From Candidatus Eremiobacterota bacterium (lineage in GTDB: Bacteria > Vulcanimicrobiota > CADAWZ01 > Ess09-12), in NCBI GenBank assembly GCA_031082125.1, contig JAVHLM010000017.1, positions 62,001-126,000 of the forward strand: DNA of 64,000 nucleotides, written 5' to 3'. A program made the translations under genes and the position numbers. Below the pieces are notes generated by a model. That model saw only the letters and a program-made list of their open reading frames with translations, ran no database searches and was not told the origin of the DNA. This document shows positions 16,925 to 64,000 of this stretch, one piece after another (within the stretch, counting starts at the first letter, position 1; the number at the start of each line of letters is the position of its first letter).

Positions 16925-17371
16925 TTACATGTTTCTCCCCGCGGTATAGCCGAGGCCTGCACCGGCGAGGGTGCCCAGGAGCCCCCAGCCCGGATCGCCG
17001 TGGGAAAGCCCCAGCCCGAGCATCCCGCCGAAACCGGCGCCAAGCATGCCGCCCATGAGGCCCCCTGCATTGTTGTTGTAACCGTAATTGCCATAACAGC
17101 CGTAATTGCCATAGCCGCCGTAATTGCCATAGCCGCCATACATGCCACCGTTGTTATAGCCGGGGTAGCCTATCATGCTCGTGGCATAGCCGCCGTACAT
17201 GCCGTAATTGCCAAAGCCGCCGCCGTAATTGCCGGGATAGCCCATCATGCTCGTGGGATACCCCCAGCCGCCCCCATGGCGAATACCGTGATGGCCGTGG
17301 TGGCCGTGGTGGCCATGGTGCATCGGGAAGCCACCGCCTATCCCAAAGTTAAAGCTCACATGTGCGCTCAT
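16925..17371 (-). CDS. Gly/Tyr/Asn/His-rich repetitive protein
   Basis: A 148-residue protein of extreme composition. It begins MSAHVSFNFGIGGG, then has a HHGHHGHHGHHG tract that could bind metal, repeated GYGNYGG and MGYPG units (about 35-105), and a C-terminal glycine-zipper-like stretch (GGLMGGMLGAGFGGMLGLG ... LAGAGLGYTAGRN). No signal peptide is seen. It has its own near-consensus promoter and a strong terminator, so it is expressed as a monocistron. A GGGGGA stretch precedes the ATG. It resembles structural or aggregation-prone glycine-rich proteins only in composition; I do not recognise a family. Confidence 0.75.
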   Translation of the reverse strand: MSAHVSFNFGIGGGFPMHHGHHGHHGHHGIRHGGGWGYPTSMMGYPGNYGGGFGNYGMYGGYATSMIGYPGYNNGGMYGGYGNYGGYGNYGCYGNYGYNNNAGGLMGGMLGAGFGGMLGLGLSHGDPGWGLLGTLAGAGLGYTAGRNM

Positions 17372-56952: not shown

Positions 56953-58551
56953 ATGAAAAGCTTCTTCAGAAACCCTGCCGTCACGGTGGTCCTTGGCGCC
57001 CTTGCCCTTCTTCTTGTATCGGCAGCCATCCTCGCGGGACACTCTTACTCCCGCCTGGTGACAATGGAGAATATCTCTCTTCCCTCGGGGAAAGGGGAGA
57101 CCCTGAGGGTGCGCAGGCTTAAGCCTGCCTCCTTCTCTCCCCGAAGAGGGGTAGTGGTAGCTCATGGGATGAGCTCATGCAAGGAATTCATGGACCCCCT
57201 CTCGCTGGAGCTCGCAAGGGCGGGGTATTTGGTGGTGGTGCCTGATTTTCCCGGCGACGATATCAAGAAGAATATCGCCATTATCGTGGTCTGCATCGAT
57301 TACCTCTCGTCCATTACCGGGAAGAACAACGTGGCACTCGCGGGGCACTCCCTCGGCGCCGTCGAGGGAGTAGATACGGCCCTCTTTGAGCGGCAGGTGA
57401 AAGGCGTTGTGGCCATAGGCCTCTATATCGGCGGAGACCTGGCCCTGAACCCGGGAAACCTCCTCCTCATCACGGGCCTTTACGACTCGTTTCAGACGCC
57501 CGGGGAGATGTGCCAGGCCATCAGTGCCTTCACCGACGGAGCCGTCGGGGAGCCGGGGATCACCTGGGGTGATTTTTCCCGCAGGACGGCGAAAAAGCTC
57601 GAGATATCCCCCTTTTCCCAGCACTCTTCCGAGATTCTCGACCCTCACCTTGTCAGGGAGACTTTGAGCTGGCTGGACTCAAGCTTCCTGGGTGCGCCAC
57701 GGGCCCTGAGCCCTTTCTATTTCACCTGGCACTTCACCGCTTCGGCCCTGGCCTTCCTGAGCCTCTTTCTCCTCCTCCTCTTCATTCCTCTCGCCCTTGA
57801 AGGGGACGCTCCGTGGGACTGCCGCCGCCGCAGGGCAAGAATGGTGATATACTTCCTGGCAGGCGCCGGTGTATGGGTCCTGTCCTTCAAGGGGGTTCTG
57901 GGAGGAGCATGGGCCCTCGGGGGGTGCCTCTTGGCAGGCAGCGCCTTTGCCGTCCTGGAGGTGCTTTATAAAGCCACGGCCTCACCCCACGAGGGTGCAG
58001 CGGCCCTCTGGCGGTGGCTTTGCAGGAAAGGGCTGGGGATTGCCATCCTGTGCCTCTCCCTCTTTCTCTCCGTGGCGCTCTTTGAATACCGTCGGGTCTT
58101 TTTGAGCGCAGGCACCCTCGCCGCCTTTCCTTTTTTTTTCTATTTCTCCTTTATCGAGTATCCCCTTGTCACGATCCAGGCGGCGGCACACCGTGCCGCC
58201 GCAGAGTGCCCGCCCCTCCTTTACGGGCTTGGAGCCTTCAATATCCTTGTCATGGTCCTCTTTGCCACAAGAGCTTCATCGGTATATGACATAGTGACAA
58301 TATGGCTCCCCCGGGTGCTCCGCATAAGGAGGCATGACGGGAACTCACGGGTAAAGGCATTGATCCTTGCCGCCCTCCTCGTGGCACTCTTCATCATAGC
58401 GGGCAGGACATTGAATGAGCCCTTCGCGAGCTTCTCTATCATAAAGATTTTTCTCGTTGACATAGTGAAATATGTCGCCCTCCCCATTGCTCTTTCCGTG
58501 GGCATTCTCTCCCTCATCATGAAGAACCGGGGGGCTCAGGTGATGAAGTAG
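56953..58551 (+). CDS. Alpha/beta hydrolase with polytopic membrane tail
   Basis: A 532-residue protein. One N-terminal hydrophobic segment (about 8-28) precedes an alpha/beta hydrolase domain (about 50-250) with VVVAHGMSSCKEF, the nucleophile elbow GHSLGA and a late His (SPFSQHSSE). From about residue 255 there are roughly seven membrane segments. Substrate unknown; the catalytic domain would sit beside the membrane on the outer face if the first segment is an uncleaved anchor. There is no strong ribosome-binding site before the ATG. The last 16 bases overlap the convergent CPBP gene. Confidence 0.78.
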   Translation: MKSFFRNPAVTVVLGALALLLVSAAILAGHSYSRLVTMENISLPSGKGETLRVRRLKPASFSPRRGVVVAHGMSSCKEFMDPLSLELARAGYLVVVPDFPGDDIKKNIAIIVVCIDYLSSITGKNNVALAGHSLGAVEGVDTALFERQVKGVVAIGLYIGGDLALNPGNLLLITGLYDSFQTPGEMCQAISAFTDGAVGEPGITWGDFSRRTAKKLEISPFSQHSSEILDPHLVRETLSWLDSSFLGAPRALSPFYFTWHFTASALAFLSLFLLLLFIPLALEGDAPWDCRRRRARMVIYFLAGAGVWVLSFKGVLGGAWALGGCLLAGSAFAVLEVLYKATASPHEGAAALWRWLCRKGLGIAILCLSLFLSVALFEYRRVFLSAGTLAAFPFFFYFSFIEYPLVTIQAAAHRAAAECPPLLYGLGAFNILVMVLFATRASSVYDIVTIWLPRVLRIRRHDGNSRVKALILAALLVALFIIAGRTLNEPFASFSIIKIFLVDIVKYVALPIALSVGILSLIMKNRGAQVMK

Positions 58552-59495
58552 AGCTTGCACTGAATGGCGAAAATTATGGCGCCATGCATGACAAGGCCCG
58601 CGCCGATTCCTCCCGTTTCGACGGTGGCCTTGCCCCATATCCACCCTAAAAACGTGAAGAGGACAAGCTTTCCAATGGAGCCCAGGGGCTGACTTATGTC
58701 AAAATGAATGGCGCCGAAGAGGAAAGCCTGGAATATGATCCCGTCGGCACCGAGACTCCTGGTGAAGACCGGGAGGAAAATGCCCCGGAAAAAGCTCTCC
58801 TCCATGAAGGCGCCGATAAGAGAGAAAAGCACAAGGGAAATGAAGAGCGGGGCCAGGCCGGTCATGCCATAGAAGGGAGCCTTCAATACAGGGAGAGGGG
58901 GAGGAAAGAGAAAGGCAATGACGGCAAAGCCGGCAAGGGCATAGAAAAGCACTGCCACGAAATAGGCCGTGATCTTTTTCCACGTGGCCATGTGAGCCCC
59001 CACGAGGTCCGTCTCTCGGGACCAGTCGCCGGCCTTCAGGTACGAGGCGAAATACCCCGGCGGGTAGGTGAAAAAGAGGAGGGCCATGCATGCCAGGGGA
59101 ATCACCTGGTAAAGGCGGTGAAGGGTAAAATAATCCATGTGAAGGAGGGCTATAGGGAAGGGGGAGCCGGGATAGAGGAGAGAGAGCTTGGGATGGAATG
59201 AGCGGTAAAGAAGCTCGGCGCCCAGGAAGCCCAGCAGAAATGCCATGATGAAAAGGAAGATCTCGCGGTAAGGCCGAAGGCGCGCCACAGAGGTGAAAAG
59301 CCAGAGGAAACAGAGGGTAAGGAAGAGGCCCCTCACGTAGCCGCGAAAGGTGACGAAGTAAAAGACTCCCCCCTCAAGGGGCTTCAGGGCTCCTGACAGA
59401 AGCAAGATGAGGGCGATGAGTGCCGCGGCCGTCACTGCGAGCTCGCGGCCGTAAGCCTTCACGGCTTTTCTGCGAGGATTGTCATCCTCCGGCAC
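58536..59495 (-). CDS. CPBP (CAAX/Abi)-family intramembrane protease
   Basis: A 319-residue membrane protein with about eight segments. Catalytic motifs of the CPBP family are present: EESFFRG (the diacid), FGAIHF and MHG with the conserved His residues. In bacteria such enzymes process prenylated or bacteriocin-type peptides or give bacteriocin immunity, and their substrates are rarely known. It ends the radical SAM run, which makes leader-peptide cleavage a tempting guess. The GTG at 59495 overlaps the methyltransferase; a GTG at 59462 overlaps its stop codon (GTGA) and is equally likely as the start. Confidence 0.85.
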   Translation of the reverse strand: MPEDDNPRRKAVKAYGRELAVTAAALIALILLLSGALKPLEGGVFYFVTFRGYVRGLFLTLCFLWLFTSVARLRPYREIFLFIMAFLLGFLGAELLYRSFHPKLSLLYPGSPFPIALLHMDYFTLHRLYQVIPLACMALLFFTYPPGYFASYLKAGDWSRETDLVGAHMATWKKITAYFVAVLFYALAGFAVIAFLFPPPLPVLKAPFYGMTGLAPLFISLVLFSLIGAFMEESFFRGIFLPVFTRSLGADGIIFQAFLFGAIHFDISQPLGSIGKLVLFTFLGWIWGKATVETGGIGAGLVMHGAIIFAIQCKLYFIT

Positions 59496-60196
59496 CCGAG
59501 GACGTACGGCGTTTTATCATAGGAGCCATAGACCTCAAGGATCCTGAATCCCGCATCGAGGAGGATTCTTTTCAATTCGGGATAGGAATAATACCGTATC
59601 GAGGCTATATAATCGCGCTTTTCTATTGCATCGCCCACCACATGGAGATAGGTATCAAACCTGTCGGTGAGGACATCAAACTCCCTGCGCAGAAGATAGT
59701 AACGGTCCTTTTTCTTGAACCATTTCCTGAGCTGCCTGTCAAATCCCATGAGCAGGCTTTCCTTGCTTGCAAGGTCAATCAGGAAGCGCCCGCCGCTTTT
59801 CAGAGCCTTGAAGACTCCCTTGATGACCTCGATGTTCTCGGCATCATCAAAGTAGCCGAAGGAATGATTGAAATTCAGCACAAAATCAAATTTTTGCTCA
59901 AAGGGGATCTTTCTCATGTCGCCCTTGACAAATTCCGCGTCAAGCTGCTCCTTTTTCGCTTTCGTTTTGCAGTAATAGAAGAGGCCGTCATTATACTCGA
60001 GGCCCGTGACCTTGTAGCCGAGCCTTGTCATTGCATAGGACAGTCTTCCTGCGCCGCAGGCCAGGTCAAGCACCTCCGCCCCGGGAGGACAGGAGAGAAA
60101 AGACTTTACAAAAAGGATATGCTGCACTGTCTCTGCATCATCGGGCTCTTCCAGCTCGAAATAATTGTCATCGAAATACTCGTCATACCACGCCAT
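59459..60196 (-). CDS. Class I SAM-dependent methyltransferase
   Basis: A 245-residue cytoplasmic protein: VLDLACGAGRLSYAM (motif I), GLEYNDGLFYY, FVKGDMRKIPF, FDFVLNFNHSFGYF (motif II region) and LKSGGRFLIDLAS. The start is fixed by GGGAGG five bases before the ATG. It lies ten bases downstream of the radical SAM/SPASM gene and overlaps the CPBP protease gene, so all three are probably translated together. The acceptor could be a peptide modified by the neighbouring radical SAM enzymes or a small molecule; the sequence does not decide. Confidence 0.88.
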   Translation of the reverse strand: MAWYDEYFDDNYFELEEPDDAETVQHILFVKSFLSCPPGAEVLDLACGAGRLSYAMTRLGYKVTGLEYNDGLFYYCKTKAKKEQLDAEFVKGDMRKIPFEQKFDFVLNFNHSFGYFDDAENIEVIKGVFKALKSGGRFLIDLASKESLLMGFDRQLRKWFKKKDRYYLLRREFDVLTDRFDTYLHVVGDAIEKRDYIASIRYYSYPELKRILLDAGFRILEVYGSYDKTPYVLGCRRMTILAEKP

Positions 60197-60206
60197 GCGT
60201 TCCTCC

Positions 60207-61238
60207 CTATTCTGTCGCCATGAGTCGGTAAATGCAGTAGGGATTGCTGTATCTGTTCCCTGTCACATAGTAGGCAAAGGCTGAGCAGCCGCACTTGCAC
60301 TGCTCAAGATACTTGCAGCTTCTGCAGAATCCCTCCACCTTGGAATAATCAAACTGCCTGTTGTAGCAGAAGCTGTTCCTATTGTACCAGATTTCTTTCA
60401 GGGAGGTCTCATTGATGTTCCCTTCGACAAAGGCCTTTCCTTCGATATATTCAGGCAGCTGGCACAGGCATCCTTTCACCGTTCCGTCGGCCTCAATCGC
60501 CACCAGGGTGATGCCGGCCTTGCAGCCTTTCCATCTATTCCCGCGCATTGTCTCTTCCATGGCCGTGTAATATCCTATGTTATCAGAGACGTGAAGATCG
60601 ATAATTTTATCTTTTCTCACCTCAATGAGAAACTTCACAAGATAACGGAGATCGCGGGGGCTCAGCACCTGCTCGGCCTGCTCCTTCATTCTCCCCGAGG
60701 CAAAGGTGAGCTGCACCTGCCAGGAGGGAATTTCATGGTCTATCACGAGTCTGTAGAGATCTTCCAGCTGATGAAAATTGAATTTCGAGAGCGAGGTGAT
60801 CGCACATCCATGCACGTCATGCTTTTCAAGCTCTTTGAAGGCTTCCATGACATCGCGGTACGCATTTCTGCTCTGCCGTATATGGTTATGGACCTCCTCG
60901 AGCCCGTCAAGGCTTATGGAAAAGCTCTCAAAATACTGGGCGATATCCTTTATCTGATCCTTGACAAAGGTCCCGTTTGAGACAATACCGCTTCTTATCC
61001 CATAGTCCTTTATCCGGGCCGCAAGCTGTGGCCAGTCCTTCCTGAGAAGCGGCTCACCGCCGGAAAAGGTGATTTCTTTCATCCCTATATCTCTGCATTC
61101 ATCAATAATGGAGAGCATCTTCTCCGTTCCCATTTCAGCCGGCCGGCCGGTTGCCGCAGAGGAGGCACAATGAAGGCACCGCATGTTGCACTTCATCGTG
61201 ATCTCGAGGATACACTTGACGGGAGGCTTCACTTCCAT
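60207..61238 (-). CDS. Radical SAM/SPASM-domain protein
   Basis: A 343-residue enzyme. The cluster motif is CNMRCLHC near residue 18, followed by ITFSGGEPLLRKDW and ISLDGLEEVHNHIRQS, the usual radical SAM core. The C-terminal SPASM region has GCKAGITLVAIEADGTVKGC and CRSCKYLEQCKCGCS, enough Cys for two auxiliary iron-sulfur clusters. SPASM enzymes mostly modify ribosomal peptides or act as sulfatase-type maturases. It is the third radical SAM gene in the run, clearly different from the tandem pair upstream. The ribosome-binding site is weak (AGAGCAGAG). Confidence 0.88.
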   Translation of the reverse strand: MEVKPPVKCILEITMKCNMRCLHCASSAATGRPAEMGTEKMLSIIDECRDIGMKEITFSGGEPLLRKDWPQLAARIKDYGIRSGIVSNGTFVKDQIKDIAQYFESFSISLDGLEEVHNHIRQSRNAYRDVMEAFKELEKHDVHGCAITSLSKFNFHQLEDLYRLVIDHEIPSWQVQLTFASGRMKEQAEQVLSPRDLRYLVKFLIEVRKDKIIDLHVSDNIGYYTAMEETMRGNRWKGCKAGITLVAIEADGTVKGCLCQLPEYIEGKAFVEGNINETSLKEIWYNRNSFCYNRQFDYSKVEGFCRSCKYLEQCKCGCSAFAYYVTGNRYSNPYCIYRLMATE

Positions 61239-61268
61239 TTCAGCTCTGCTCTTTTCTGATGGTGATTC

Positions 61269-62243
61269 TTACACTTCCATGCACTCGTACTTATTGAAAT
61301 GACTTACACAGTAGAGGCATGGATCATGTTCGGAAGAGGTGAGATTCCCCTCCATCACCCAGTCTATCTTGCTGCGACAGAATTTGTTAATCTTGTTTGA
61401 AAGCTCCTTCAGCGCGAACTGCAGCGGCGTCGTATTCAGATCGTCAACGATGTCGGAGTCTGCTCCCGCTGCCCCGCGGTAATTCGAGAGATCAGGGCAG
61501 AATCTTAAATGTCCGTGACAGTCGATGCCTATCATCGACATCGCCTGGGGGCGGCATACGGATAACGGATAGCGTGTTTTGGTCCCCGCCAATGTCACTG
61601 CCATCCGTTTATGTGCTTCCCTTATCGAGTCTATCTGCTTTTCAACCTCATCTATCTGCGCCGGCGAGAGCATGTACTGCGCATTCTCCAGTGTCGGCTT
61701 CATTATCGTGTAATTCAACTCGAGAGCACCGGCCTCATCGGCAAGCTTCGCAATCTGCTCCAGCTCATTGATATTGAACGTGCCGACCACTACCTGCACG
61801 CTGAAAGGGATGCCATGCATCCGCGCAAGCCTGAAGGCCTCTTTTACCTTTGCGAAGGAGCCCTCGCCCCGTATCGCATCATTGGTCTCAGCAGTGGCGC
61901 CATCTATGCTGAATGCAAAGCCCCTGAATCTTTGCGAAGCGCCCTGTACAATGAGCTTATAAGCTTCCTTGAAATTCTGTCCGTTTGAGGTAATGGTATA
62001 ATCAATATCATGCCGCTCCATCACGGCAATCAGGCCTTCCCAGTCGCTGTGAAGCGTCGGTTCACCGCCCGTGATGGCCACAATTCTTGTCTTGTACGGC
62101 TCTGTCTGCTCAAGAATATGGTCCAGCAGGCGGAGGTCAATATCGACAGGGCCTGTCCCCCCCATATCGTTGATATTTTTATTGCAGTGCCTGCAGTTCA
62201 GGTTGCATCTATTGGTCGCCTCAACAACGATTATCTCGGGCAT
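61269..62243 (-). CDS. Radical SAM protein, second copy of tandem pair
   Basis: A 324-residue protein very similar to its upstream neighbour across the whole length: MPEIIVVEATNRCNLNCRHC (cluster motif), AITGGEPTLHSDWEGLIAV, FSIDGATAETNDAIRGEG, then CRPQAMSMIGIDCHGHLRFCPDLSNYRGA and a C-terminal CLYCVSHFNKYECMEV. The C-terminal Cys set suggests a SPASM/twitch-type auxiliary cluster. AAGGAG precedes the ATG. The leader, including ATACATTATGAAGGAGA, is also shared with the first copy, showing that duplication included the ribosome-binding site. Substrate unknown. Confidence 0.88.
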   Translation of the reverse strand: MPEIIVVEATNRCNLNCRHCNKNINDMGGTGPVDIDLRLLDHILEQTEPYKTRIVAITGGEPTLHSDWEGLIAVMERHDIDYTITSNGQNFKEAYKLIVQGASQRFRGFAFSIDGATAETNDAIRGEGSFAKVKEAFRLARMHGIPFSVQVVVGTFNINELEQIAKLADEAGALELNYTIMKPTLENAQYMLSPAQIDEVEKQIDSIREAHKRMAVTLAGTKTRYPLSVCRPQAMSMIGIDCHGHLRFCPDLSNYRGAAGADSDIVDDLNTTPLQFALKELSNKINKFCRSKIDWVMEGNLTSSEHDPCLYCVSHFNKYECMEV

Positions 62244-62303
62244 TTTTCTCTCTCCTTCATAATGTATTTATGCTCAGAGGGCATCACCATAATGGAGGTG
62301 ATT

Positions 62304-63287
62304 TTACATCTCCATGCAGTCGTTTTTATTGAAATGCCTGACACAGTACAGGCATGGATTGGCATCGGTTGACGAGATTGTGCCCTCTGTCACCCAGTCA
62401 ATCTTGTTATGGCGGAATCTGTTGATCCTGTTCGAAAGATCCTTCAGCGCCGCCGAGAGCGGCTTCATATTCAGATTGGCGATGATGTCCGTGTCATCAT
62501 GAATCGCGCCGCGGTAATTCGTGAGATCGACGCATAACCTCAAGAGCCCGTTGTAGTCAATGCTTATCATCGACATCGACAGGGGGCGGCACACGAAAAA
62601 TGGATCGGGCGATTTATACCCCGTCGTCATGCCGATTTTCACGCGGGCATTCTTGTGGGCTTCCTTTATGGCGACCACCTGCTCTTCCACCTCATCGGAC
62701 TCCACGAGAGAGAGCAGGAGCTCCACATTATCCGGTGACGGCCTCATCAATATGTAATTCAGCTCGTCAGCACCAAGCTCTTCTGCAAGCGCTGCAAGCT
62801 GAGCCAGTTCATGCTTGTTGTGCCTGCCGACCACTGCCTGCATCCCGAAGGGTATGCCCTTCTCTTTGGCAATCCTCATTGCCCCTACGACATAGTTAAA
62901 AGCTCCCTCGCCCCTTACCGCGTCATTTACTTGAGCGGTAGCGCCCTCTATGCTGAACGTGATTCCCTTGAATTTTTTTGAGGCATTTTTTACCAGTACC
63001 TTGTGAGCCTCCTCGAAGTTTATGCCATTTGTGGTAAAGACATAATCAACATCATGTTTTTCCAGCACGGCAATCAGGCCTTCCCAGTCGCTGTGAAGCG
63101 TCGGCTCTCCGCCGGTGAGGGACACGATCCTTGTTCTGAACGGCTCAGCCTGCGTGAGTATCTTGTCCAGCAGGTGGAGATCTATATCGACAATATCAGC
63201 GCCCCCCATGGTGTTAATCTTTTTCATGCAGTGCACACAATCCAGATTGCATTTATTGGTCGCCTCAATGACAATTATCTCGGGCAT
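62304..63287 (-). CDS. Radical SAM protein, first copy of tandem pair
   Basis: A 327-residue protein with MPEIIVIEATNKCNLDCVHC (cluster motif), SLTGGEPTLHSDWEGLIAV, FSIEGATAQVNDAVRGEG, CRPLSMSMISIDYNGLLRLCVDLTNYRGA and CLYCVRHFNKNDCMEM. It differs from the second copy mainly in the central specificity region and in the segment before the first C-terminal Cys. AAGGAG lies ten bases before the ATG. It is first in the five-gene minus-strand run and is preceded by about 390 bases with no firm gene. Substrate unknown. Confidence 0.88.
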   Translation of the reverse strand: MPEIIVIEATNKCNLDCVHCMKKINTMGGADIVDIDLHLLDKILTQAEPFRTRIVSLTGGEPTLHSDWEGLIAVLEKHDVDYVFTTNGINFEEAHKVLVKNASKKFKGITFSIEGATAQVNDAVRGEGAFNYVVGAMRIAKEKGIPFGMQAVVGRHNKHELAQLAALAEELGADELNYILMRPSPDNVELLLSLVESDEVEEQVVAIKEAHKNARVKIGMTTGYKSPDPFFVCRPLSMSMISIDYNGLLRLCVDLTNYRGAIHDDTDIIANLNMKPLSAALKDLSNRINRFRHNKIDWVTEGTISSTDANPCLYCVRHFNKNDCMEM

Positions 63288-63409
63288 TTTAGATAATCTC
63301 CTTCATAATGTATTTTATACAGAAGAGCATGCCATGAAAGGTGCTGCTCGCCGGCGAAGCCTCACTGTGTTCAGAACCAGCCGGGCCGGCTGATCTCACC
63401 TTCTGACGA

Positions 63410-63499
63410 TCATCGCTCCCCTCCGAACAGGATTCCACCATGATGACCGTATCCCCCATGTAATTTCTGCATTCCACGACATGGTTCCTGTAAATTCAT
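63410..63499 (-). CDS. Candidate small Gly/His-rich peptide, speculative
   Basis: A 29-codon frame starting at the ATG at 63499, with AGGTG ten bases upstream, and ending in TGA. The C-terminal half reads HGGYGHHGGILFGGER, rich in Gly, His and Tyr, after a short N-terminal part MNLQEPCRGMQKL. Its size, composition and place 122 bases ahead of two radical SAM genes would suit a ribosomally made precursor peptide, but short frames like this also arise by chance and no family match is recognised. Confidence 0.22.
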   Translation of the reverse strand: MNLQEPCRGMQKLHGGYGHHGGILFGGER

Positions 63500-63617: not shown

Positions 63618-63647
63618 AAGAGCCTGGGGCTCCCCGCCTCCAGGCTC
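63618..63647 (-). terminator. Terminator-like hairpin after partial gene at right edge
   Basis: On the minus strand, GAGCCTGG, a 12-base loop, CCAGGCTC, then TTTCATTT. It lies 34 bases past the stop codon at 63681. The stem is strong, but the T-run is interrupted. Confidence 0.6.
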
Positions 63648-63680: not shown

Positions 63681-64000
63681 CTACACGGCCTTCTGTACGT
63701 CCGCGGCCTGCTTTGCTGTTTCTTCTTTGTTCTCTGTCTTCGTGCCGGGGAGCGCCACGTCTCCCTGGACCGTGTTCACTGCTGCTGGCAGGTTCATTAC
63801 CGGCGCGCCTTCCTTGATCTTCGCCGAGAAGATGCCGCTCTTTCCTCCATCGGTGGCTCTGATGTCGCCAATCCTGTGGATTTCGCCGTTCTGGTCGATT
63901 GCGGCGAGCGGCGGAGGCTTCACCTTCATCGTCGCATCGCCCATGTTCTTGCCCACCTTCACAGGGCTCGGATCGCCGTCTCTCTGGAGCTTCACATCCA
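63681..64000 (-). CDS. Unknown protein, C-terminal part (5' end beyond window)
   Basis: The last 106 residues of a gene entering from the right edge. The visible part has short beta-type segments (IDQNGEIHRIGDIRATDGGK, SGIFSAKIKEGAPVMN) and an Ala/Lys/Glu/Thr-rich, probably disordered tail (TKTENKEETAKQAADVQKAV). No motif is recognised. An in-frame GTG at 63995 could be a start, but the frame stays open to the edge, so I treat it as partial. A hairpin terminator follows. Whether it belongs with the radical SAM run is unclear. Confidence 0.5.
   Translation of the reverse strand, partial: DVKLQRDGDPSPVKVGKNMGDATMKVKPPPLAAIDQNGEIHRIGDIRATDGGKSGIFSAKIKEGAPVMNLPAAVNTVQGDVALPGTKTENKEETAKQAADVQKAV

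Follow-up and report, generated by a model that had tools for sequence, protein, structure and literature searches.

A conserved block of radical SAM enzymes, a methyltransferase and a large domain-less protein in Candidatus Eremiobacterota that may form a protein-modification module

The window analysed here is a stretch of 64,000 nucleotides (G000:C17:62001-126000) from the 7.43 Mb assembly of a Candidatus Eremiobacterota bacterium. Five packed genes lie on its minus strand (Table 1), all of them where the initial annotation had placed them, with gaps of 60 (rSAM-A1/rSAM-A2), 30 (rSAM-A2/rSAM-B) and 10 bases (rSAM-B/MTase); the MTase and CPBP genes overlap by 37 bases if the latter is read from its first GTG, or are coupled through a GTGA if its start is at 59462. 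Using Pfam, the Radical_SAM domain was found above cut-off in all three rSAM proteins, the methyltransferase was identified as Methyltransf_25 and the membrane protein as Rce1-like. The radical SAM cysteines (CxxxCxxC) are residues 13, 17 and 20 in rSAM-A1 and rSAM-A2, and 17, 21 and 24 in rSAM-B. The earlier distinction between two enzymes with C-terminal cysteine sets and one full SPASM enzyme was borne out, as the Pfam SPASM domain was recognised in rSAM-B alone (35.1 bits, cut-off 21.5). The rSAM-A enzymes did not match Pfam SPASM and carry a shorter, SPASM/twitch-like set (in rSAM-A1 C233-X13-G-X4-C252, C312-X2-C315, C324).

Table 1. Features of the locus, in window positions unless a contig locus is given.
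Feature	Position	Strand	Remarks
rSAM-A1	63287-62304	minus	327 aa, ORF
rSAM-A2	62243-61269	minus	324 aa, ORF
rSAM-B, full SPASM radical SAM enzyme	61238-60207	minus	343 aa, splicease-like branch
Class I methyltransferase (MTase)	60196-59459	minus	245 aa, conserved module member
CPBP (Rce1-like) membrane protein	58536-59495 from first GTG, or 58536-59462	minus	Pfam
SADK gene, 3' end	63681-64000	minus	last 105 codons inside the window
SADK gene, full	L001:7681-9411, to window-equivalent 65411	minus	576 aa, ORF
Terminator-like hairpin	63620-63647	minus	GAGCCUGG...CCAGGCUC then UUUCAUUU, after the SADK stop
29-codon frame	63499-63410	minus	MNLQEPCRGMQKLHGGYGHHGGILFGGER; AGGTG upstream; read from sequence

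Upstream of the enzymes, the gene order continues beyond the window edge with a gene for a large protein, which we named SADK after its motif V-S-x-A-D-K, followed by mreB, murA and the ATP synthase operon, the latter three named by eye from the sequence. In the window genome, 393 bases holding the hairpin and the 29-codon frame separate the SADK gene from rSAM-A1. The hairpin is strong and folds with a z of -2.3 (4 of 200 shuffles were equally good) and was reported by a simple terminator scan on the plus strand only, and no Rfam elements were found around the SADK gene. The 29-codon frame is a possible tiny gene, although it probably arose by chance; its first base, 63499, coincides with the outer limit given to the cluster in the initial annotation.

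Among the 149 genomes of the phylum used for comparison, rSAM-A is present in four, namely the window genome, bacterium CPR1 (G028, record QWHO01), G032 and SZAS-1 'EREM-KAN-1' (G038, JAFEBA01). These span three families, and the SADK protein is present in the same four genomes and in no other. MTase matches above 375 bits were likewise confined to them, the next match reaching 154 bits. If presence were independent, the chance of meeting the same four of 149 would be about 5e-8, a figure to be read with the reservation that genomes are not independent draws. In 4/4 genomes rSAM-A is the next gene after SADK, and the three relatives share the order SADK, one rSAM-A, rSAM-B, MTase with gaps below 30 bases (20-27 bases between SADK and rSAM-A); the CPR1 copy is divided over two contigs, with the break within rSAM-B and the remainder with the MTase at the start of another contig. 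Given that the order is kept while the window SADK protein shares only 33-35% identity with its three homologues, the block does not merely reflect recent shared ancestry. Its core consists of four gene families (SADK, rSAM-A, rSAM-B and MTase) and not of five genes. A contig search with the five sequences returned the CPR1 and SZAS-1 records plus distant radical SAM enzymes, and a scan of genome contigs with the two rSAM-A paralogues alone gave no match. We found no literature connecting Eremiobacterota with such a system; the ocean Ca. Eudoremicrobiaceae have been described as rich in biosynthetic clusters, RiPPs included (PMC9259500). In SZAS-1, the MTase faces another SPASM radical SAM gene in convergent orientation (L031:12795-13997, minus strand), which was not seen beside the module in the other genomes.

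The CPBP protease, which had been counted as part of the cluster, was rejected as a module member because it has no homologue in the three relatives, the run ends with the MTase in G032 and SZAS-1, and the third-position GC of the CPBP gene (0.72) resembles that of the neighbours mreB and tamB rather than that of the enzymes (0.63-0.65). It is probably a translationally coupled neighbour outside the system; a second copy, 34% identical, lies elsewhere in the window genome. The initial annotation had named homologues that always lack methyltransferase and protease as evidence against the cluster; among the relatives this holds for the protease, which is always absent, and not for the methyltransferase, which is kept. 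A conserved small frame upstream of the enzymes had also been suggested as something to look for, but the short distance between SADK gene and rSAM-A in the relatives leaves no room for it, and the 29-aa frame was therefore rejected as a precursor conserved in the relatives. Nor was a small gene that could serve as PlpY/RRE partner found between the block genes of the relatives; small Cys proteins that might be the counterpart of PlpY in this phylum are located elsewhere in G000 and G028. An RRE-like domain, looked for as an N-terminal extension, is lacking in both rSAM types, which begin at the radical SAM core. Taken as a parts list for peptide maturation, the locus retains peptide- or protein-modifying radical SAM enzymes and a methyltransferase, all conserved, and loses the protease and the small precursor. 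Strict RiPP features (a small conserved frame, a conserved protease, an exporter) were not found in the block, and no curated class fits the module, in agreement with the first impression that the combination matches no named RiPP class.

The two rSAM-A enzymes are 59% identical and, as the initial annotation had noted for these MPEIIV proteins, diverge mostly in their central regions (45-53% identity at residues 166-275, 62-71% at the ends). In the tree they group together against the single copies of the other genomes with a support of 88/89, which points to a doubling in the window lineage, and rSAM-A2 is probably a lineage-specific duplicate of rSAM-A1. The AF2 model of rSAM-A1 (pLDDT 81) is closest to the solved folds of SuiB, SkfB, BlsE, PqqE and anSME, also CteB, and resembles MoaA as well. 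While the predicted fold of the core and the auxiliary-cluster region is thus shared with the sactipeptide-type maturases SkfB, SuiB and CteB, rSAM-A lacks their N-terminal RRE domain, and a Cys-rich core peptide is absent here. Two full-length rSAM-A relatives outside the four genomes adjoin HPr-kinase-like genes. One of the two, from outside the phylum and 29% identical to rSAM-A, belongs to a cluster with lasso-like parts in a Desulfosarcina MAG (L033:716-4794), which comprises HPrK, the radical SAM protein, PqqD, a transglutaminase-like protease and NTP_transf_5; the last cysteine of the C-terminal set is a tryptophan there, and SADK, rSAM-B and MTase are missing.

None of the five proteins reached an NCBIfam equivalog cut-off. 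The best curated model for rSAM-B was the GDL motif peptide-associated radical SAM/SPASM maturase (TIGR03913, rad_SAM_trio), aligned over its full length with 212 bits (cut-off 592), followed by nif11-class maturase 3 (TIGR04103, 203 bits), whereas the AhbD/NirJ models scored 140/124 bits; unlike in the TIGR03913 system, no small peptide gene is seen in the block. In the tree, the rSAM-B clade (100/100) is nested in a family with enzymes that adjoin MYG-repeat proteins, which hold 4 to 10 motifs each and are often accompanied by a Cys protein of 60-82 aa. Several other members of the tree lack a repeat protein of this kind in their neighbourhood, so that a link to MYG proteins is only a possible ancestral state of the family. 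The known splicease PlpXY acts on MYG and LYG sites (PMC10533398); in it, the SPASM radical SAM enzyme PlpX has the RRE protein PlpY as its partner (PMC11002830). rSAM-B resembles PlpX (IPR026482) in being a SPASM enzyme placed among MYG-linked relatives. However, the block differs from PlpX/PlpY in having a SADK protein devoid of Tyr-Gly, no PlpY-like gene, an additional rSAM-A and MTase, and one large, non-repetitive partner. For the MTase, the daptide-type methyltransferase (NF041820) was the best NCBIfam model, but its score of 71 bits stays below the cut-off of 175, and other daptide parts are missing.

The SADK protein has a length of approximately 540-590 aa across the four genomes and is without any known domain; that of the window genome is rich in Gly, Ala and Gln. 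Searches against Pfam and PDB sequences gave no match, and neither did a fold search, which was uninformative as its query was a low-confidence model (pLDDT 48, mostly low confidence, with one helical part reaching about pLDDT 78 and weakly predicted beta structure at the C-terminus). The alignment of the four proteins contains 107 invariant columns of 687 with one invariant cysteine, and the conserved stretches, examined for clustering as a hint of modification sites, are not clustered above shuffled columns. No repeated core, recognisable leader or known modification motif was seen, and Tyr-Gly is absent from all four proteins. As a guess, the invariant cysteine (C132, within M-C-x-M-x-x-V-S-x-A-D-K) and the stretch L-G-x-T-R-x-G-S-P-L-x-Q could be the first candidate sites. 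The window protein has seven cysteines and the others two to four, alongside the doubled rSAM-A, which with four genomes is a remark at most.

Starting from the observed gene order, the exclusive co-occurrence, the enzyme families and the predicted rSAM-A fold, we lean towards reading the block as a dedicated protein-modification module with SADK as its most likely target. SADK is found only and always beside the enzymes, and the simplest account of this is that it is their target; its role as substrate of rSAM-A, rSAM-B and MTase is inferred from this linkage. Judging by the peptide-maturase branch to which rSAM-B belongs and by the predicted rSAM-A fold, peptides or proteins are likelier substrates than a small molecule. 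rSAM-A (one copy in the relatives, two here) and rSAM-B would alter side chains or backbone positions of SADK using SAM and [4Fe-4S] chemistry, and the MTase would add a methyl group. Because a leader protease, an exporter and an RRE protein are all absent from the module, the modified SADK may be used at full length, without leader cleavage or export. Several points count against the SADK reading: linkage is no proof of an enzyme-substrate relation between SADK and the radical SAM enzymes, a 393-base stretch with a hairpin lies between the SADK gene and rSAM-A1 in the window, and the four carrier genomes are all draft assemblies from one phylum. The absence from SADK of a repeated core, leader, modification motif and clustered conservation, and the low confidence of its model, weigh on the same side.

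Known radical SAM maturases mostly act on short peptides that are later cut free. It is conceivable, though we would put it forward tentatively, that a new kind of system is present here: a single large protein of about 550 aa, without leader or repeats, would be modified by a methyltransferase together with two different radical SAM enzymes and be kept at full length, and rSAM-B would have left tyramine splicing for another reaction. The single conserved companion of the module is a large domain-less protein, and its SPASM enzyme stands in a splicease-like branch without a splicease motif to work on. The module is a defined place to seek new protein backbone or side-chain chemistry.

In a classical RiPP pathway, the three radical SAM enzymes would modify a small precursor (the 29-aa frame or the product of an unlinked gene), which would also be methylated, and SADK would serve as scaffold or carrier. 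The precursor-like repetitive proteins in the clusters of rSAM-B relatives and the plausible ribosome site and the GYG of the 29-aa frame would be consistent with this. We nevertheless regard such a pathway as unlikely, since the three relatives have no space for a small gene, no MYG-repeat precursor occurs in their 20-kb loci around the module, and RRE, leader peptidase and exporter are all missing from it. Similarly improbable is the synthesis of a small molecule or cofactor (compare the AhbD/NirJ-type relatives) that is bound or carried by SADK. Heme and cofactor radical SAM models do score for the enzymes and the rSAM-A fold is also like BlsE and MoaA, but these models rank below the two peptide maturase models for rSAM-B, which groups with precursor-linked enzymes, and the block contains no cofactor enzyme or transporter.

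As SADK contains no Tyr-Gly, it is no splicease substrate, and rSAM-B either performs other chemistry or acts elsewhere. The latter would apply if rSAM-B were a true splicease that excises tyramine at X-Tyr-Gly of a protein encoded at a distance, such as the XYG-rich one at 16925-17371 of the window (minus strand; 148 aa, rich in His, Gly and Tyr, ten X-Tyr-Gly triplets, MYGGYGNYGGYGNYGCYGNYG), which has no radical SAM gene adjoining it. The position of rSAM-B within the MYG-linked family and the existence of this protein speak for it; however, a search for tandem MYG sites with a set spacing found none in CPR1 and G032, the one in SZAS-1 belongs to another rSAM-B relative, and we consider a splicease very unlikely. 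That unrelated genes became neighbours by chance is hardly credible, as the order is kept across three families with an identical presence pattern, even though radical SAM genes abound in the window genome, where 126 domain matches are spread over 7.4 Mb and are densely grouped in places on contigs C41 and C23.

Apart from the module, the phylum holds spliceotide-like clusters (L151:9503-10375, minus strand; L152:1373-2176; L149:5778-6257; L153:4145-4624; L154:6600-7160), in which repeats such as MMYGIFPVAPSPYGG occur 4-10 times in proteins that adjoin rSAM-B relatives and a Cys protein (60-82 aa) of the pattern CPL..KPC..EC.W.A.G..KC; the number of XYG cores per protein is unusually high. Three genomes belonging to a single genus encode proteins in which a PMYGVVIDPRPRPEPPIQ unit recurs about ten times almost unchanged, immediately next to a more distant rSAM-B relative (L166:5230-6114; L167:7149-8030, minus strand; L172:7136-8095, minus strand), and five QPVYGAPMPS units are present at L173:6023-6562. 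Furthermore, rSAM-B relatives in the window genome (L156:7439-9908) and in G001 (L155:3223-5539) adjoin an M16-peptidase-like gene, in which HxxEH was read by eye.
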